48,278 nucleotides of DNA from NCBI RefSeq assembly GCF_010501035.1, contig NZ_QVMH01000010.1:1-48278 (forward strand). The letters are read 5' to 3'. Under the pieces are notes generated by a model that was not told the DNA's origin, did no database searches, and was given only the letters and a program-made list of their open reading frames with translations. The translations under genes were made by a program, and so were the position numbers. Within the stretch, counting starts at the first letter, position 1, and the number at the start of each line of letters is the position of its first letter. Positions 6,334 through 25,168 of the stretch are shown piece after piece. The stretch comes from Paludibacter sp. 221 (GTDB taxonomy: Bacteria > Bacteroidota > Bacteroidia > Bacteroidales > Paludibacteraceae).

Positions 6334-6936
6334 TTAGTTGAATGCCATGATACGGCTTATATATTTACCGATTATATCAAATTCGATATTAACCATGCTT
6401 CCTTTTTCTATCTGGTGAAAATTGGTAAACTCGTGTGTGTAAGGAATTATCGCCACCTGGAATGTGTCGTCGGTAGGGTTGCAGACGGTAAGGCTTACCC
6501 CATTTACGGTTACCGAGCCTTTGTCTACAGTAAGGTAGCCGCGCTTTGCCATTTCTTTATCAAATTTGTATTTGAACGTATATAGCCAGCTTCCGTCCAT
6601 CTCTTCTACATTTATACATTCGGCAGTTTGGTCTACGTGTCCCTGTACGATATGCCCGTCCAAGCGTCCGTTCATCCGCATGCTGCGTTCGAGGTTTACT
6701 TTGCTTCCGATTCTTAACAGTCCCAGGTTCGACCTGTCGAGCGTTTCCTGAATTGCGGTTACGGTATAGGTCTTATCATCTTTTTTCACAACAGTAAGGC
6801 ATACCCCATTGTGGGCCACACTTTGGTCGATAGTAAGTTCGTCGACAAACGAACAAGACATTGTTATATGAAGATTTTCTTTGTCTTTCTGTAAGGCCAC
6901 TACTTGAGCAGCTTCTTCTACTATTCCTGAAAACAT
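6334..6936 (-). CDS. ribE: Riboflavin synthase alpha subunit
   Basis: The 200-aa protein starts with the diagnostic MFSGIVEE and has the two tandem lumazine-binding barrels of the family. Repeat 1 (about 1-96) contains VAHNGVCLTV and repeat 2 (about 97-200) contains GSVTVNGVSLTV, the matched ligand-binding motifs, plus GHIVQGHVDQ at the junction. It converts two 6,7-dimethyl-8-ribityllumazine into riboflavin and a pyrimidinedione as a cytoplasmic trimer. Length is normal. It is a stand-alone gene here, away from ribD/ribBA/ribH, with its own terminator. Confidence 0.95.
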   Translation of the reverse strand: MFSGIVEEAAQVVALQKDKENLHITMSCSFVDELTIDQSVAHNGVCLTVVKKDDKTYTVTAIQETLDRSNLGLLRIGSKVNLERSMRMNGRLDGHIVQGHVDQTAECINVEEMDGSWLYTFKYKFDKEMAKRGYLTVDKGSVTVNGVSLTVCNPTDDTFQVAIIPYTHEFTNFHQIEKGSMVNIEFDIIGKYISRIMAFN

Positions 6937-6954
6937 ATTATTTAGTGTTTAATT

Positions 6955-7197
<243 letters not shown>

Positions 7198-16846: not shown

Positions 16847-17893
16847 TTAATTATTCTCTGGTCTCAGTTTGCGTACAGTAGCACCGGCTTGCCACATTTC
16901 GCTTTCGCGGAGTGCTTTAAGCTCTTTTTCCAACCCTTCGCGGTAGTCGGGTTTCGAGTTTGTATCGATAGAGCGTTGTGCTTCGTTTCCGCTTGCAACT
17001 TCAGAATACAATTTAGCAAAAACCGGTTTTGTAGCATCGTGGAAAGGTCCCATCCAGTCCAGTGCACCACGTTGCGCAGTGGTAGAGCAGTTTGCATACA
17101 TCCAGTCCATACCGTTTTCAGCGAAAAGCGGCATCAACGATTGGGTCAGTTCTTCCACTGTTTCGTTGAATGCCTCTGATGGAGTGTGTCCGTTTTCGCG
17201 CAGCACCTCGTATTGAGCCAATAATATACCTTGAATAGCTCCCATTAGCGTTCCGCGTTCTCCGGTGAGGTCGGAATATACTTCGCGTTTGAAATCTGTT
17301 TCGAACAGATAGCCCGACCCAACTCCGATTCCTAAAGCTACAACACGCTCGAAAGCACGTCCGGTAGCATCCTGGAAAATAGCGTATGAAGAGTTCAACC
17401 CACGTCCTTCGAGGAACATGCGGCGAAGTGAAGTTCCGGAGCCTTTAGGCGCTACCAGAATCACATCTACATCAGCAGGAGGGATAATCCCTGTACGTTC
17501 TTTATATGTGATGCCAAAGCCGTGAGAGAAATATAATGCTTTGCCTGCAGTGAGATAAGGTTTGATACGTGGCCAAACTTCAATTTGCGCAGCATCAGAA
17601 AGGAGGTATTGAATAATAGTTCCTCTTTCGCATGCTTCTTCAATATCAAAAAGTGTTTCGCCCGGAACCCAACCGTCAGCTACAGCTTTATCCCAAGTTT
17701 TTCCACCTTTACGTTGTCCTACGATTACGTTGAATCCGTTATCGCGCAGGTTCAGCGATTGTCCCGGACCTTGTACGCCGTATCCGATAATTGCGATGGT
17801 TTCATCTTTTAATACTTCTCTTGCTTTTTCCAACGGAAATTCGTCGCGGGTGATTACGTTTTCTTCTACACCGCCAAAATTCATTTTTGCCAT
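16847..17893 (-). CDS. ilvC: Ketol-acid reductoisomerase
   Basis: The 348-aa class I enzyme has the nucleotide-binding motif IAIIGYGVQGPGQSLNLRDNG (about 34-54). The knotted C-terminal domain follows, with metal-binding SDLTGERGTLMG and NETVEELTQ. It isomerises and reduces acetolactate or acetohydroxybutyrate to the dihydroxy acids, needing Mg2+ and NAD(P)H. It is the last gene of the leftward ilvD-ilvB-ilvN-orf-ilvC unit, starting 129 bases after the small membrane protein gene. Length fits the class I type of Bacteroidetes. Confidence 0.96.
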   Translation of the reverse strand: MAKMNFGGVEENVITRDEFPLEKAREVLKDETIAIIGYGVQGPGQSLNLRDNGFNVIVGQRKGGKTWDKAVADGWVPGETLFDIEEACERGTIIQYLLSDAAQIEVWPRIKPYLTAGKALYFSHGFGITYKERTGIIPPADVDVILVAPKGSGTSLRRMFLEGRGLNSSYAIFQDATGRAFERVVALGIGVGSGYLFETDFKREVYSDLTGERGTLMGAIQGILLAQYEVLRENGHTPSEAFNETVEELTQSLMPLFAENGMDWMYANCSTTAQRGALDWMGPFHDATKPVFAKLYSEVASGNEAQRSIDTNSKPDYREGLEKELKALRESEMWQAGATVRKLRPENN

Positions 17894-18022: not shown

Positions 18023-18340
18023 TTAACCTAAAAAATGTCCGGCTATTCCAATCAAAGTTCCCAGTACAATCGCATTGATTGCAATTATAGGTACTGATTT
18101 TTTTTCAGCATGCCCTACCAGCACAAGTACCGGAAGTGCTAAACATAATGATATCAATCCGCCTTCGAGCCACCATACAATATGGGGAAGGTCGATATTG
18201 ACAATGACGATAGAAACAAAAAAATACTGTACAAATGCCGAAATTGTTGAATGTTTGGGCAATTTTTGTATTATCATTGGAATAATATCAATTATTCCGG
18301 CTACAAGTCCGATAATTACAGATAATAATAATTTATCCAT
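18023..18340 (-). CDS. Small membrane protein within the ilv operon
   Basis: The 105-aa protein is almost wholly hydrophobic, with about three to four membrane helices (3-22, 35-50, 58-75, 83-104), GxxxG-like contacts (GLVAGIIDIIP, GTLIGIAGHFLG) and a short loop HAEKKSVP. I do not recognise a named family. It lies in the same orientation between ilvN (50 bases before) and ilvC (129 bases after), so it should be co-expressed with valine/isoleucine synthesis. In Bacteroides that slot usually holds an acyl-ACP thioesterase gene, which is absent here. A role in export or sensing of branched-chain intermediates is only a guess. Confidence 0.65.
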   Translation of the reverse strand: MDKLLLSVIIGLVAGIIDIIPMIIQKLPKHSTISAFVQYFFVSIVIVNIDLPHIVWWLEGGLISLCLALPVLVLVGHAEKKSVPIIAINAIVLGTLIGIAGHFLG

Positions 18341-18390: not shown

Positions 18391-18942
18391 CTATCCTTCG
18401 TTTGTAACCTTTTCTTCGATGCTTGCAAGCATATCACTTAGGCGTTCTACCTTGGATTTTGTAATTGCTATGCGTCCCGAACGGATAAACTGCAATACTC
18501 CTACCGAGTCTTTCAGTTCGTCGAAAAGCCCTTGCGTTTCTTTATAATGTCCGGTTTTCTGTAAAACCATGAAGGTTTCATTCATTTCCAGAATCTGGAT
18601 ATTATATTTGCGTATTATTTCTTCAATCGAACCTAAAGCCAATAGTTTGTTTGTTGCTATTTTGTATAAGGCTATTTCCTGAAAAACCAGTTCGTCGTCG
18701 GTACTGTAATATGCTTTCAATATGTCTACCCGTTTGTCAATTTGTTGTACCACTTTTTCAATCATGTCTTTTGTAGAAAAGACCGTGATTGTAAACTTGT
18801 GGATGCCTTTGATGGCTGATGGTGAGACTGATAGAGTTTCTATATTTATCCCTCTCCGGGTAAAAATAATGGTTATCTGATTAAGTAGTCCAACCGTATT
18901 TTCCGAGAATATCGTAATAGTATATAATGTACTTTCCTGCAT
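18391..18942 (-). CDS. ilvN: Acetolactate synthase small (regulatory) subunit
   Basis: The 183-aa protein starts with an ACT domain (YTITIFSENTVGLLNQITIIFTRRGINIETLSVS, about 6-40) followed by the second regulatory domain. It matches the IlvN/IlvH family and would bind valine and activate or inhibit the catalytic subunit IlvB. Twenty bases separate it from the end of ilvB, so the two subunits are cotranscribed and probably translated together. The C terminus beyond about residue 150 (GRIAITKSKVERLSDML) is normal for the Bacteroidetes form. Confidence 0.93.
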   Translation of the reverse strand: MQESTLYTITIFSENTVGLLNQITIIFTRRGINIETLSVSPSAIKGIHKFTITVFSTKDMIEKVVQQIDKRVDILKAYYSTDDELVFQEIALYKIATNKLLALGSIEEIIRKYNIQILEMNETFMVLQKTGHYKETQGLFDELKDSVGVLQFIRSGRIAITKSKVERLSDMLASIEEKVTNEG

Positions 18943-18962: not shown

Positions 18963-20723
18963 TTAATCGCATAATAAAATATCTGTAATACATGCTCCGG
19001 CCGGAACCATAGGATAAACCAGTCCTTTGGTTTCTACATTCACAACTAAGAGATAAGGCTTATCATCCTGCAGCATATCGTTGATAGCACCATCCAGTTC
19101 TTCACGTTCGTTTACCTCTTTGCTTGCAATGCCGTAAGCCCTTGCAATGGTAACAAAGTCGGGGTTTTTCATCTCGGTAAACGAATAACGCTCGTCAAAG
19201 AACAACTCTTGCCATTGGCGTACCATACCCAGAAAATGATTGTTCAGAATAATTATTTTTACGCCAATCTGCTCCTGCATAATTGTGCCAAGTTCCTGCA
19301 TTGTCATCTGGAAACCGCCATCGCCACAAAACAAACAAACCGTACGCTCCGGTGCTCCGATTTTAGCCCCCATAGCGGCAGGAATACCAAACCCCATTGT
19401 ACCCAATCCGCCGGAAGTAACTATACTGCGTGGCTGCGAGTATTTAAAATATCGTGAAGCCATCATTTGGTTTTGTCCCACATCGGTAACTAAAACGGCT
19501 TTATTCTCTGTTGCCTCCGAAACCCTGCGGACAACTTCTCCCATCGTTATCTGACCATGTTCGGGGTGAATTTCTTTTCTGATTACTTTGTCGTATTCCA
19601 GTTTGTCGTATTCGTCGAAAGAGCGTATCCACTCTGTATGCGAATTTTTCTTTACTTTTTCGGTAAGAGCGGCTAAGGTTTCTTTTGCATCGCCAAGTAC
19701 AGCAACGTCTACAGGTACGTTTTTACCTATTTCGGAAGCATCAATATCTAAGTGTATAATTTTAGCTTGTTTGGCATATTTGGTCAGGTCGCCTGTAACA
19801 CGGTCGTCGAACCGCATCCCGATTGCAATTATCACATCAGCTTCGTTGGTTTTCATATTGGGGCCTATGTTGCCGTGCATACCCAAAAATCCCTTGTTTA
19901 ATGGATAATCGGATGGCAATGCCGACAGTCCCAGCAAGGTATTTCCGGCAGGGATACCTGCTTTCTCAAGAAATGCTTTTAATTCTTCTTCGGCATTTCC
20001 CAAAATAACTCCCTGACCAACCAGAGCAAATGGTTTTTTTGCTTCGTCAATCAGTTGTGCGGCAGCTTCTATCTGTGCAGGATTTACTTCCGGTACAGGT
20101 ATGTAGCTACGGATAAAATCGCAAGGCTGATACTCAAACTCAACATTCTGTGCTTGCGCATTTTTAGTAAAATCCAACACTACAGGTCCCGGTCGGCCAC
20201 TACGTGCGATATAAAACGCCCGTGCTATTGCCCAACTAATATCCTCAGCACGACGTATCTGGTACGACCATTTGGTTATAGGCTGTGTAATACCTACTAC
20301 GTCTATCTCTTGAAAAGCATCGGTTCCCAAAAGGTTTGCGCCTACTTGTCCGGCTATGACTACCATCGGGGTGCTATCGAGCATGGCATCGCCTATTCCG
20401 GTAATCACATTGGTAGCTCCGGGACCGGAGGTTACAAAGCATACTCCTACTTTGCCCGAAACCCGAGCATAGCCTTGCGCGGCATGAGTGGCGCCTTGTT
20501 CGTGACGTGTGAGTATGTGGTTGATTTCGTTTTTGAAATCGTATAGCGTGTCGAATACAGGGATGATTTGTCCGCCCGGATATCCGAAGATGGTATCAAC
20601 TCCTTCGCAAATTAATGATTCGATTAGTATTTGTGAACCGGAAATAATGCGCTTCGTTCCTTTGGCGCTGTCATTGCGGGCTTGACCCGCAATCTCTTCT
20701 ATGTTATTATTTTTTGATTTCAT
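18963..20723 (-). CDS. ilvB: Acetolactate synthase large (catalytic) subunit
   Basis: The 586-aa ThDP enzyme has GSQILIESLICEGVDTIFGYPGG, the catalytic-glutamate region LTRHEQGATHAAQGYAR, the central FAD/cofactor domain with GMHGNIGPN and GMRFDDRVTGD, and the ThDP-Mg2+ motif GDGGFQMT...NNHFLG. It condenses two pyruvates, or pyruvate with 2-oxobutyrate, at the first shared step of valine/leucine/isoleucine synthesis. The first ~25 residues are not family sequence: IEEIAGQARNDS is encoded by a palindromic repeat (20671-20697) inserted at the start of the gene. The catalytic region begins at about residue 26, and no better start lies downstream before it. Confidence 0.95.
   Translation of the reverse strand: MKSKNNNIEEIAGQARNDSAKGTKRIISGSQILIESLICEGVDTIFGYPGGQIIPVFDTLYDFKNEINHILTRHEQGATHAAQGYARVSGKVGVCFVTSGPGATNVITGIGDAMLDSTPMVVIAGQVGANLLGTDAFQEIDVVGITQPITKWSYQIRRAEDISWAIARAFYIARSGRPGPVVLDFTKNAQAQNVEFEYQPCDFIRSYIPVPEVNPAQIEAAAQLIDEAKKPFALVGQGVILGNAEEELKAFLEKAGIPAGNTLLGLSALPSDYPLNKGFLGMHGNIGPNMKTNEADVIIAIGMRFDDRVTGDLTKYAKQAKIIHLDIDASEIGKNVPVDVAVLGDAKETLAALTEKVKKNSHTEWIRSFDEYDKLEYDKVIRKEIHPEHGQITMGEVVRRVSEATENKAVLVTDVGQNQMMASRYFKYSQPRSIVTSGGLGTMGFGIPAAMGAKIGAPERTVCLFCGDGGFQMTMQELGTIMQEQIGVKIIILNNHFLGMVRQWQELFFDERYSFTEMKNPDFVTIARAYGIASKEVNEREELDGAINDMLQDDKPYLLVVNVETKGLVYPMVPAGACITDILLCD
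20671..20697. repeat. Palindromic repeat inside the ilvB coding sequence
   Basis: attgcggg-cttga-cccgcaat (20673-20693) is a perfect 8-bp stem with a 5-nt loop. It belongs to a dispersed repeat type seen in many bacterial genomes and, read in this frame, encodes EIAGQARND within the N-terminal extension of IlvB. Confidence 0.7.
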
Positions 20724-20987: not shown

Positions 20988-22814
20988 TTAGTCTATTAAT
21001 CTTACAGCTCCTTTGTCTGCAGAGCTGACGAGGCTTGCGTATGCCTTTAGCGATTTCGAGACGACTCGGTTTCTGTCTTTTGGTTTGAATGCGTCTTTTC
21101 CGCGTGCTTCTTCTTTTTTGCGGCGTTCGGCCAATTCTTCGTCCGAAAGTTTTACGTTTATACTGCGGTTTGGTATATCTATTTCTATGATGTCACCGTC
21201 TTGGATAAGACCTATGTTGCCTCCTGCTGCTGCTTCGGGCGAAATGTGTCCGATAGACAGTCCGGAAGTACCGCCCGAAAAGCGTCCGTCCGTAATAAGG
21301 GCGCACTCTTTGCCTAAATGGCGCGACTTGATATAAGAGGTAGGATAGAGCATTTCCTGCATTCCGGGACCTCCCTTAGGGCCTTCGTGTGTGATAACCA
21401 CCACATCGCCCGATGCTACATTTCCTTTTAGTATACCTTCGCATGCTGATTCTTGCGAAGTAAATACTTTTGCAGGGCCCGAAAACTTCCAGATGCTCTC
21501 GTCTACGCCTGCCGTCTTGATAACACATCCATCTTGAGCAATGTTGCCTTTGAGTATCCCCAATCCTCCGTCTTTTGTGTAAGCATATTCGATAGAACGT
21601 ATACAGCCATTCTCGCGGTCGGCATCTAAAGTGTCAAAGTATTCCTCTTGTGAACCTAACACCAGATTGAAACGGTTGGCAGGGGCTGTGGAATAAATCT
21701 GTTTTGCCTCCTTCGATGTGTTTCCCGTTGTTATATCGTATTTGTTTAATGCTTCTTTAAGTGTAAGCCCATCTACCCGTTTTACTGAGTTGTTCAGCAA
21801 CCCTGCTTTATCAAGCTCATTTAAAATGCCTAAAATTCCACCTGCGCGGTTTACATCCTGAATGTGATATTTTTGTGTATTGGGAGCTACTTTGCACAAA
21901 CATGGCGTTTTGCGCGAGAGCATATCAATATCATCCATCGTAAAGTCTACTTCAGCTTCGTGGGCAATGGCAAGCAAGTGTAATACTGTATTGGTGGAGC
22001 CTCCCATCGCAATATCCAAAGTCATGGAGTTTAAGAATGCGTTACGCGTAGCAATTGAACGTGGGAGAACGCTATTGTCGCCATCGCGGTAATATTTGTA
22101 AGCATTTTCGACAATAAGTTTTGCAGCCTCTTCAAACAGTCGTTCACGGTTTTTATGTGTGGCTACTATTGTTCCGTTTCCGGGTAGGGCTAAGCCTATT
22201 GCCTCGTTCAAGCAATTCATGGAGTTAGCTGTAAACATTCCGGAACATGACCCGCACGAAGGGCATGCCGAACGTTCAATTCGTTCCACTTGTTTGTCCG
22301 AAACGCTTTCATCGGCCGATTGAATCATGGCATCAATCAAGTCCATCTGGTGACCGTCCAATTTTCCGGCCTCCATTGGGCCACCCGATACGAAAACAGT
22401 AGGAATATTCAACCGCATAGAAGCCATAAGCATTCCCGGTGTTATCTTGTCGCAGTTGCTTATACACACCATTGCATCGGCCTTATGGGCATTTACCATA
22501 TACTCTACACTATCGGCTATAATGTCGCGCGATGGCAGGGAATAAAGCATGCCGTCGTGTCCCATTGCTATACCATCGTCGATAGCTATGGTATTGAATT
22601 CGGCAGCGAAGCATCCAAGTTTTTCTATTTCGGTTTTTACCTTTTGCCCTATTTCGTGCAGGTGTACATGTCCCGGAACAAATTGTGTAAAAGAGTTGAC
22701 AATAGCAATAATAGGTTTGCCCATTTGTTCGTCTTTCATTCCGTTGGCACGCCACAGTGCACGGGCTCCAGCCATCCTCCGTCCTTGTGTGCTTGTTTCG
22801 CTTCTTAATTTCAT
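20988..22814 (-). CDS. ilvD: Dihydroxy-acid dehydratase
   Basis: The 608-aa protein matches IlvD end to end: [45 protein letters not shown] with the first cluster cysteine, [20 protein letters not shown] with further Fe-S ligands, and [22 protein letters not shown]. It dehydrates the dihydroxy acids to 2-oxo acids of the valine and isoleucine pathways using an oxygen-sensitive Fe-S cluster. It is the first structural gene of the operon and sits directly behind the leader attenuator at 22831-22974, which should control it and everything downstream. Confidence 0.97.
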
Positions 22815-22830
22815 ATACGTTTATTTAAAT

Positions 22831-22868
22831 AAAAAACCTTCCTCATTTAATGGTGAGAAAGGTTTTTT
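22831..22868 (-). terminator. Attenuator terminator of the ilv operon
   Basis: On the minus strand aaaaaaccttt-ctca ... tgag-g-aaggtttttt forms a stem of 10 plus 4 bp separated by one A/C mismatch, followed by tttttta. It lies 17 bases before the ilvD ATG, inside the leader. Its 5' arm (22852-22864) can alternatively pair with 22900-22912 in the leader-peptide coding region, so terminator and antiterminator exclude each other. Confidence 0.85.
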
Positions 22869-22893
22869 AATGCTTTTATTCTACATGTATTTT

Positions 22894-22974
22894 TTACGCA
22901 ACCGTCCTCACCTCTGATTTATTGACCAAAAGTAGAATGACGTTCACGAGAATAATAATGCTTTGAGAAATCAT
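22894..22974 (-). CDS. ilv operon leader peptide (26 aa)
   Basis: This small frame starts with ATG (complement of 22972-22974) and ends with TAA (22894-22896). Fourteen of its 26 codons are Ile, Leu or Val, including the runs IIILV (residues 6-10) and VILLLV (12-17). Its start lies about 17 bases after the predicted transcription start, and it is followed by a terminator before ilvD. Ribosome stalling on the Ile/Leu/Val run would free codons 21-25 (GAG GTG AGG ACG GTT) to form an antiterminator; completion of translation would cover them. This is the classic layout of ilv leader attenuation and is not listed by gene finders because of its size. Confidence 0.85.
   Translation of the reverse strand: MISQSIIILVNVILLLVNKSEVRTVA
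22900..22912 (-). promoter_or_regulatory. Antiterminator segment of the ilv leader
   Basis: On the minus strand ggtgaggacggtt pairs with aacctttctcacc of the terminator 5' arm: 12 pairs, one of them G-U, with a single C/U mismatch. The segment lies in codons 21-25 of the leader peptide, just after the Ile/Leu/Val run. Confidence 0.75.
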
Positions 22975-22997
22975 TAATTTCGTTTTTGTTTCGGTTG

Positions 22998-23029
22998 CAA
23001 AGATATGCTAAGATTTTTAAAGTAACAAA
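22998..23029 (-). promoter_or_regulatory. Promoter of the ilv operon
   Basis: Read on the minus strand: TTTG (23026-23029), a 20-nt spacer, TATCTTTG (22998-23005). Both boxes and the spacing match the Bacteroidetes sigma consensus. Transcription would start near 22991, about 17 bases before the leader-peptide ATG. Confidence 0.75.
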
Positions 23030-23214
23030 CAAACTGCAAGAAAAATACAGTTTTTTTGTCCGAATTGAAAGAAATATAGCTTTTGAAATTAGAAAATTAA
23101 GAGCTTGTATTTTGCAAGCATAGCATTATTCTAATTTATTGTGTGTTCCGGCTCATTGTAATGTCTTGAAATCTTTTTAAGGTATAAACATAAGGCAAAA
23201 CCAGTAAAATATAT

Positions 23215-23222
23215 TACTTTTG
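23215..23222 (+). promoter_or_regulatory. Putative -7 box of dxs
   Basis: TACTTTTG matches TAnnTTTG and lies 26 bases before the dxs ATG. No TTTG is found at the usual -33 distance, so the call is tentative. The dxs and ilv promoters diverge from the same intergenic region. Confidence 0.4.
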
Positions 23223-23248
23223 TACATCTATTATGCTGTAACCCCAAA

Positions 23249-25168
23249 ATGATTGAAAGACAATATAAATACCTTAGCGAAATAAATTCTCCGGCTGATT
23301 TGAAGAAGATTCCAAGGGAAGAACTGGAAGTTGTATCTCAGGAATTGCGGCAATTTATAATTGATGAGGTATCAAAAAATCCCGGACATTTAGGTTCAAG
23401 TTTAGGTGTTGTTGAATTAACCGTAGCACTGCATTATGTTTTTGATACGCCATACGACCGTATAATTTGGGATGTAGGGCATCAGGCCTACGGGCATAAA
23501 ATACTGACAGGCAGGCGCGATGTTTTCCATACCAATCGCCAGTTTAAAGGTATTTCAGGTTTTCCTTCGCCTAAAGAGAGTGAGTACGACGCTTTTGGGG
23601 TAGGGCATTCGTCCACGTCCATTTCGGCAGGTTTAGGTATGTCAGTTGCATCCCTGTTGCAAAACGATGCCAAGCGTAAGGTTGTTGCTGTAATTGGCGA
23701 TGGCTCTATGACAGGAGGTTTAGCCTTCGAGGGATTGAACAATACCTCTATGGATAAAAATAACCTTTTGATTGTACTGAATGACAACCAGATGGCTATC
23801 GACCCTATCAAAGGAGGTTTCAGTCAATACCTTGTAGATATAACTACTTCGAGAACTTACAATAAAATCCGTTATGGGCTTTATACTGTTTTGCGGAAAT
23901 TAGGCTTTATCAGCGAATCGCGAAGGAAACGCATTTTACGTTTTAATAACAGCCTGAAAGCAAAAATATCCAGTAAGCAGCCTAACATCTTCGAGGGTTT
24001 GAACATCCGTTACTTTGGCCCTGTAGATGGGCATGATGTTGATAATCTGGTACGCGTTTTAAATGAAATAAAGGAGTACGAAGGGCCTAAGGTGCTGCAT
24101 ATCATTACTAAAAAAGGGAAAGGTTATAAGCCTGCGGAAGAAGCCGCTACTATTTGGCATGCTCCCGGTAAATTTGACGTATCGACCGGGGTGCGCGATT
24201 GTTCCTGCAAGGAGTGTACTCCTCCATTATTTCAGGATGTGTTTGGTGAAACTTTGCTTGAACTGGCAAAACAAAATGATAAGATAGTGGGTGTTACGCC
24301 TGCTATGCCATCGGGTTGCTCCATGTGTATAATGCAGGAGGAATTTCCCGACCGGGTATTTGATGTGGGAATTGCTGAGGGGCATGCGGTAACTTTTTCG
24401 GCCGGACTGGCAAAAGAGGGTTTGATGCCGTTTTGTAATATCTACTCTTCATTCATGCAACGTGCGTACGATAATATTATTCACGATGTAGCTCTACAAA
24501 AACTAAACGTGGTTTTTTGTATCGACCGTGCGGGTATTGTAGGTTCCGACGGGGCTACCCATCAGGGACAGTTTGATTTGTCTTACCTTCGTTTTATCCC
24601 AAATATGACGATTGCCGCACCACGTAATGAGATGGAGTTGCGGAACTTGATGTACACAGCCCAATTGCCCGATATGGGACCTTTTGCTATTCGTTATCCG
24701 CGTGGAAACGGTTTTAATGTGGATTGGGAAACCCCTCTTGCACCTTTGGAAGTAGGTAAGGGCGAGAAACTGAAAGATGGAAAAGATATTGCAGTACTTA
24801 CTATCGGAACAATAGCACATAATGCGTCAAAAGCTATAGAGGAAATTGAACGGGAGCAGAATGTGACTGTTGCACATTACGATTTGCGCTTTCTGAAGCC
24901 TTTGGATGAAACTTTATTGCATGAGATAGGGCAATCGTTCACCAAAATTGTAACCATCGAAGATGGCGTTATTAAAGGCGGATTTGGTAGTGCAGTATTA
25001 GAGTTTATGGCAGATAATGACTACAGCCCTCAAATAAAACGCTTGGGAATACCGGATAACTTTATTGAACACGGTACTCAAAAAGAGCTCTTTAGTATGC
25101 TTGGCTTGGATGCCGTAGGAATCGCCAAGAGTATCCTCGACTTTTCTGATTTTACAAAAGCAAAATAA
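23249..25168 (+). CDS. dxs: 1-deoxy-D-xylulose-5-phosphate synthase
   Basis: The 639-aa ThDP enzyme shows the family markers: [38 protein letters not shown], the ThDP motif GDGSMTGG...NDNQ (about 150-181), [54 protein letters not shown] and IRYPRGNG. It condenses pyruvate with glyceraldehyde 3-phosphate, entering the MEP isoprenoid and thiamine/pyridoxal pathways. The motif usually written DGPTHHG reads DGATHQG here, a moderate variation. Length is normal. The trkA gene follows 75 bases later. Confidence 0.96.

Follow-up and report, generated by a model that had tools for sequence, protein, structure and literature searches.

A putative leader-peptide attenuator tuned to branched-chain amino acids precedes ilvD in Paludibacter and is conserved among Bacteroidales

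The window analyzed here, a 48,278-nt stretch of the Paludibacter sp. 221 contig NZ_QVMH01000010.1, carries on its minus strand genes for branched-chain amino acid synthesis, and a compact leader element lies directly upstream of the first of them, ilvD (Table 1). Among the named matches listed, the closest IlvD (83%) came from a MAG labelled Porphyromonas. From the sequence, we regard it as plausible that ilvD, ilvB, ilvN, the small hydrophobic open reading frame (ORF) and ilvC form one operon, and do not put this higher: the scan listed no minus-strand terminator-like site in the 264 nt that separate ilvD from ilvB, but it failed to pick up the leader terminator described below as well.

Table 1. 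Positions of the ilv genes, of the leader element upstream of ilvD and of two sister elements (window coordinates unless a locus is named)
Feature	Position	Strand	Evidence
Promoter, Bacteroidota type: TTTG (23029-23026), 20 nt, TATCTTTG (23005-22998)	22998..23029	minus	sequence, conservation
Leader peptide ORF MISQSIIILVNVILLLVNKSEVRTVA, 26 codons, 14 Ile/Leu/Val in two runs	22894..22974	minus	ORF and Ile/Leu/Val leaders in relatives
Antiterminator strand (segment 2) GGUGAGGACGGUU, leader codons 21-25	22900..22912	minus	12 pairs with terminator 5' arm
Terminator 5' arm (segment 3); antiterminator partner AACCUUUCUCACC at 22852-22864	22854..22869	minus	folding, pairing, covariation
Terminator 3' arm and T-run (segment 4)	22830..22845	minus	sequence, folding, covariation
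ilvD, dihydroxy-acid dehydratase, first gene that would be controlled	20988..22814	minus	NCBIfam NF009103, 1091.9 bits; TIGR00110, 804.8 bits
ilvB, acetolactate synthase large subunit	18963..20723	minus	TIGR00118, 719.5 bits
ilvN, acetolactate synthase small subunit	18391..18942	minus	TIGR00119, 78.7 bits (cut-off 56.9)
105-aa hydrophobic protein between ilvN and ilvC	18023..18340	minus	without Pfam or NCBIfam match
ilvC, ketol-acid reductoisomerase, probable last operon gene	16847..17893	minus	TIGR00465, 324.7 bits; PF07991/PF01450
leuA leader MNFIINILSIIILLCPKTK, Ile/Leu, same layout as ilvD	L324 about 1635-1501 (G000:C57, about 7433-7299)	minus	covariance model
pheA (prephenate dehydratase) leader MNRFFTYFYFYFYFMR, then directly the antiterminator-like strand GAGCAGGA, with TCCTGCTC...GAGCAGGA as terminator	L340:388-533 (G000:C18, about 6887-7032)		sequence

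The original prediction for this region had named a promoter, a 26-codon ORF with 14 Ile, Leu or Val codons and a stem-loop followed by a T run, all of which were present on the minus strand, and the 12-bp alternative pairing that it placed between leader codons 21-25 and the terminator 5' arm was recovered as described, GGUGAGGACGGUU pairing with AACCUUUCUCACC with one G-U pair and one mismatch. The terminator hairpin (22869-22830) has 16 pairs and an 8-nt loop and lies 15 nt 5' of the ilvD ATG at 22814. The fold of the leader was more stable than 200 of 200 dinucleotide shuffles (z −4.53), and the best antiterminator duplex (−18.1 kcal/mol) was equalled by none of 100 mononucleotide shuffles. 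A generic terminator scan of the window did not list the leader hairpin, we think because its T-run sits inside the stem. Of 122 ilvD leaders, 109 had the sequence TAnnTTTG no more than 80 nt from their ATG, compared to 6.7 expected from mononucleotide shuffles, with a median of 23 nt between the end of the box and the ATG; since TANNTTTG alone showed no enrichment in the window (57 sites against an expected 58.6), the promoter call relies on this conservation. The leader ORF of the window has no Shine-Dalgarno sequence and its 5' side is A-rich. Among 123 leaders, only two had a Shine-Dalgarno-like 4-mer 5' of the ATG and the 18 nt preceding the ATG were 49.5% A, in agreement with what is known of translation initiation in Bacteroidetes. 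A search of 22700-23300 against Rfam returned 11 sub-threshold matches up to E=5, none of them credible, and neither a T-box leader nor the Bacteroid-trp RNA (RF01692) was among them.

The end of the leader ORF varies. In six aligned relatives, congeners and others, the leader stop is the TGA in ..GGTGA or ..AGTGA, for example directly after ...VNNQR. The spacer of the window leader (about 22914-22926, GGTCAATAAATCAG) has one extra base compared to three congeners, so that the TGA of the relatives is out of frame and the window ORF extends to a TAA. The TGA of the relatives falls at the start of the antiterminator strand and this TAA at its far end, and the strand would be covered by a ribosome at one or the other. 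The extra base represents either a real change or a sequencing error.

Conservation was examined in the regions upstream of ilvD from genomes of the genus and family, genomes of the order and 80 named genome contigs (the best-ranking ones among at least 596 stretches), plus fetched stretches. A total of 221 loci were placed, and 211 were retained after five duplicates and five regions shorter than 200 nt were dropped; these are not independent, since near-identical congeners were kept. G074 and G076 were left out of the 62 family genomes with ilvD, G118, G133, G151, G200 and G241 were left out of the 88 order genomes, second ilvD copies were left out, and L005 lacked a gene start. A leader was called where an ATG-started ORF held a dense Ile/Leu/Val run with a run score of at least 5, and the joint test combined such a leader with a terminator within 65 nt after its stop. 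Leaders reaching this score were found in 36 of 59 family loci, 63 of 78 order loci and 37 of 61 named Bacteroidota loci, against dinucleotide-shuffle expectations of 2.25, 3.3 and 2.55 and reverse-strand counts of 5, 7 and 4, respectively. None of the 13 named loci labelled as other phyla had one (reverse strand, 1). The joint test was passed by 126 of the 211 ilvD upstream regions compared to 3 of 543 regions upstream of other open frames, the latter being frames of at least 150 codons on either strand of the window and the named loci that are not proven genes; two of the three positives turned out to be ilvD called from a different start, and the third belongs by eye to the LeuA/CimA family. 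A terminator was found in 126 of the 136 leader-positive loci, and several of the other 10 show one by eye. The leaders have a median length of 21 codons, and named carriers include Bacteroides graminisolvens (L063), Phocaeicola faecalis (L073), a Marinifilum sp. (L116) and an Alistipes MAG (L130).

The remaining 85 ilvD upstream regions failed the strict joint test, some without any sign of a leader, and two of them (L070 and L037) seem by eye to have leaders that start with GTG or TTG. Within the 75 regions without a leader, 21 have an open frame of at least 60 codons ending within 70 nt. Two loci (L018 and L020) keep a terminator about 250-80 nt before ilvD with no Ile/Leu/Val leader ORF; here the leader has perhaps decayed or been altered. 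Beyond the order, the element was rarer: in the other orders of the class, 4 of 20 loci passed the joint test (20 of 29 matched genomes sampled), and in other classes of the phylum none of 21 did (79 genomes matched; 30 loci, 9 of them without an upstream region).

In 120 of 126 loci, the strand that pairs best with the terminator 5' arm begins between −30 and +12 nt from the leader stop, and in 85 of these 120 the antiterminator overlaps the stop codon itself. The six loci whose best duplex lies far from the stop were retained in the permutation test and in the ribosome modelling. In 105 of 126 loci, at most 5 of 100 mononucleotide shuffles paired equally well. A 53-nt segment at the stop paired with the terminator arm of its own locus at a mean of −14.5 kcal/mol compared to −10.7 kcal/mol with the arms of other loci, and the observed sum of cognate pairings was reached by 0 of 10,000 permutations, while a control segment just upstream of it gave a mean of only −3.8 kcal/mol (n=124). 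Besides CCUUUCUC/GAGAAAGG, changes carried through all three strands were seen in CCAUUCUC/GAGAAUGG (L111), CCUUUCCACC/GGUGGAAAGG (L048) and ACUUUCCGGGUC/GACCCGGAAAU (L203). In an alignment built without structure, standard pairs occupied 93.1% of the terminator cells (shuffled maximum, 86.3%; slid pairings, 41-69%) and 80.6% of the antiterminator cells (shuffled maximum, 75.7%; slid pairings, 45.6-51.9%). Changes on both sides were observed in 10 of 10 terminator pairs (116 cells; slid pairings, 5-8 of 10 pairs and 13-32 cells) and in 13 of 13 antiterminator pairs (92 cells; slid pairings, 5-11 of 13 pairs and 24-53 cells); since slid pairings show such changes too, the cell counts are more telling than the pair counts. 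The antiterminator is thus exclusive with the terminator, and the pairings covary. The first base of the last Ile/Leu/Val codon lies a median of 12 nt from the antiterminator, which is about the reach of a ribosome.

The effect of ribosome position was evaluated in a model of the nascent RNA, in which the RNA before the 3' arm had been made, the ribosome footprint (15 nt to each side of the first base of the A-site codon) was held unpaired, and the antiterminator was scored as formed when at least 5 bp were expected. In this model, the antiterminator formed in 125 of 126 loci with the ribosome in the middle of the run, in 78 with the ribosome at the last run codon, in 8 with the ribosome at the stop and in 77 without a ribosome; for the window, the expected numbers of antiterminator base pairs were 12.5, 11.2, 0.5 and 3.8, respectively. 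The geometry of classic ilv/leu attenuation that had been claimed for this leader was supported by the contrast between the mid-run and stop positions together with the placement of the antiterminator at the leader stop, and the comparison with relatives that had been suggested as a check yielded both the conserved leader with its terminator and the covarying exclusive pairing. In the full-length RNA of the window, the terminator was favoured in all modelled states, so the switch must be kinetic, as it is in classic attenuators. Pairing of the antiterminator with the upstream leader reached 0.683, while shuffled leaders gave 0.544 (58 of 120 loci at p≤0.1), yet the antiterminator formed in the majority of ribosome-free models. 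The classic protector pairing therefore appears uneven, and in most models with an untranslated leader it does not prevent the antiterminator.

Based on these data, we infer translation of the leader, stalling, kinetic competition, a response to amino acids and the extent of the operon, and we propose the following sequence of events. RNA polymerase would start a few bases past 22998, and a ribosome would follow it into the leader ORF. When charged tRNA is scarce, the ribosome would stall in the Ile/Leu/Val run (codons 6-17), leaving the antiterminator strand free to pair with the terminator 5' arm as it emerges, and transcription would read through into ilvD-ilvB-ilvN-orf-ilvC. When charged tRNA is ample, the ribosome would reach the stop codon and cover the antiterminator strand, and the terminator would form.

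A covariance model was built from 33 ilvD leaders and used to search 21 whole genomes, with 150 of the 3533 first-look candidates scored in the window genome. There, it matched ilvD (74.5 bits), leuA (67.8 bits; 44.6 bits for the reverse strand of the same site) and pheA (38.9 bits), and it also recovered the leuA leaders of the L241 and L245 genomes. Eleven leuA leaders were chosen by hand, namely 9 of the 11 above-threshold loci among 16, plus L243 (below threshold) and L329; L247 and L253 (weak ORFs with one V each) and L326 (no V) were left out. Valine accounted for 5 of 107 Ile/Leu/Val residues in these 11 leaders compared to 559 of 1421 in the 126 ilvD leaders (Fisher p 7e-16, a value that is overstated since the leaders are related). 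Three of the 11 leuA leaders do hold V, which speaks against valine being nearly absent before leuA, and in L120 a Val-rich leader precedes a LeuA/CimA-family gene, which contradicts a strict no-V rule. The leu cluster of the window genome encodes a LeuA-like protein whose best model is CimA, citramalate synthase (675 bits, below the cut-off of 950), and we infer that this cluster serves both Leu and Ile.

Other amino acid operons gave similar results. F/Y/W-run leaders were found before pheA in 13 of 14 loci from the window's own genome and relatives (one start was not found; the fragment L407 was left out of this count), compared to 1 of 260 shuffles, with the terminators judged by eye. In relatives, Trp-run leaders preceded 3 of 8 trpE loci. 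RF01692 matches occurred in 3 of the 21 genomes, one of them above the gathering score, and in the copy of relative G004 a leader ORF containing WWW can be made out by eye, together with a terminator. His-run leaders preceded 4 of the 14 hisG loci with a found start (2 of 16 starts were not found), and none was found in the window genome. Neither PF04715 (the TrpE N-terminal domain) nor RF01692 was found in the window genome or three congeners, the RF01692 candidates being partly scored in most genomes; the window's genus may not make tryptophan. Before thrA, the upstream regions of 15 of 16 matched genomes held no convincing Thr leader, with one T/I-rich ORF (L304). The antiterminator/terminator arrangement of the ilvD leaders also follows a short ORF, MKSHSNTVNRHMTIGIIWSG, ahead of a gene of relative G107 that looks by eye like glutamate synthase (L328, about 1630-1500, minus strand). 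At the sequence level, the leader codons match the product of the operon: I/L/V before ilvD, mainly I/L before leuA, F/Y before pheA, and W or H in some relatives.

This match bears directly on the other ways in which the leader could be read. An arrest peptide, for which TnaC is the model, would stall the ribosome once its nascent chain had bound a small molecule, be it a free branched-chain amino acid or something else; the RNA switch would then be thrown in the same way, and our analysis does not separate the two. Fixed residues would be expected of an arrest peptide, however, and here I, L and V interchange with little fixed order outside close relatives, while F/Y, W or H take their place in operons with other products, so that we consider this mechanism very unlikely. 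The hydrophobic leader peptide, about one helix long, would also suit a functional membrane microprotein with its own terminator, its I/L/V residues forming a membrane helix. Yet of the A, F, I, L, M, V, W and C residues in the 126 ilvD leaders, 88.9% are I, L or V, runs of F/Y occur in the pheA leaders and runs of H in some leaders of hisG, and the antiterminator pairing at the stop codon would go unexplained, making this the least probable of the alternatives. Since the codons follow the product, the leaders are explained neither by a membrane microprotein nor by an arrest peptide that responds to a free ligand.

An attenuator that works independently of translation (a riboswitch, a T-box or a protein-bound RNA), with an incidental ORF, would likewise show the alternating terminator and antiterminator, as any attenuator does. 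Against it, no Rfam family matched at the gathering score, the T-box is absent from the table for 7 Bacteroidetes/Chlorobi genomes in one survey (PMC2494555), and the I/L/V leader is conserved jointly with the pairing; its chances seem to us a shade below those of the arrest peptide. Taken together, the ORF, the two exclusive pairings with their conservation and covariation, and the product-matched codons of the sister elements, all of them established here, suggest that the element works as a transcription attenuator of the ribosome-mediated (leader-peptide) type, with charged Ile/Leu/Val tRNA as its signal, a reading to which we assign a probability of about 0.9.

Leader-peptide attenuation of the enterobacterial ilv and leu operons is textbook knowledge. 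The attenuators of ilvGMEDA, ilvBN and leuABCD resemble the element described here in having a short I/L/V-rich leader ORF, a terminator before the first gene, and an exclusive antiterminator that stalling uncovers and that a ribosome at the stop codon hides. The Bacteroidales element differs in that it belongs to another phylum, shows no demonstrated sequence kinship, lacks a Shine-Dalgarno sequence, is compact and has an uneven protector. In addition, the abstract of a 2004 study by Vitreschak et al. reportedly names candidate attenuators in Bacteroidetes/Chlorobi in some cases. The Bacteroid-trp RNA RF01692 is listed as cis-regulatory in Bacteroidetes (Weinberg 2010, PMC2864571); it concerns Trp, in contrast to I/L/V here, and the window genome has no match (97 of 586 first-look candidates scored). 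In Flavobacterium psychrophilum, strong clues for leader-peptide attenuation have been reported before amino acid operons, with pheA and hisG 5' elements that also occur in other Flavobacteriaceae (PMC9723704), although this is another order and 'ilv' is absent from the main text. A transcriptome map of Bacteroides thetaiotaomicron reports leader-peptide-like small ORFs in long 5' UTRs (PMC7366714), and the main text of a paper on his genes in the superphylum contains no word starting with 'leader' (PMC8305728). A full-text literature search, with most subscription journals outside its scope, found no description of a Bacteroidales ilv, leu or pheA leader in the searchable text, including PMC7366714, PMC9723704, PMC2864571, PMC6429828, PMC2494555 and PMC8305728. 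The original remark of being unaware of a described ilv leader in Bacteroidales needs qualifying at the level of the phylum, for which the Flavobacterium proposal and Bacteroid-trp are on record (PMC9723704, PMC2864571). Attenuation of this kind has been suggested in Bacteroidota before; what is new is its conservation across the order and the product-matched sisters.

Bacteroidales are major gut bacteria, and our full-text literature search found little in print on how they control amino acid synthesis. We see an even chance that codon-matched, ribosome-mediated attenuation is a main control of amino acid synthesis across Bacteroidales (ilv, leu-cim, phe, trp and his), and that leader codons follow the wiring of the pathways, V being scarce beside I and L where a leuA cluster has a citramalate-synthase-like gene able to feed isoleucine synthesis. 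If this were true, kinetic coupling of transcription and translation would be required in a lineage that starts its leaders without Shine-Dalgarno sequences. A leader attenuator works only if the ribosome keeps pace with RNA polymerase, and with a simple reporter the element therefore allows a direct test of coupling in Bacteroidota. It may also serve as a tuning part for Bacteroides genetics, and it predicts responses to branched-chain and aromatic amino acids in organisms whose exchange with the host includes these compounds.
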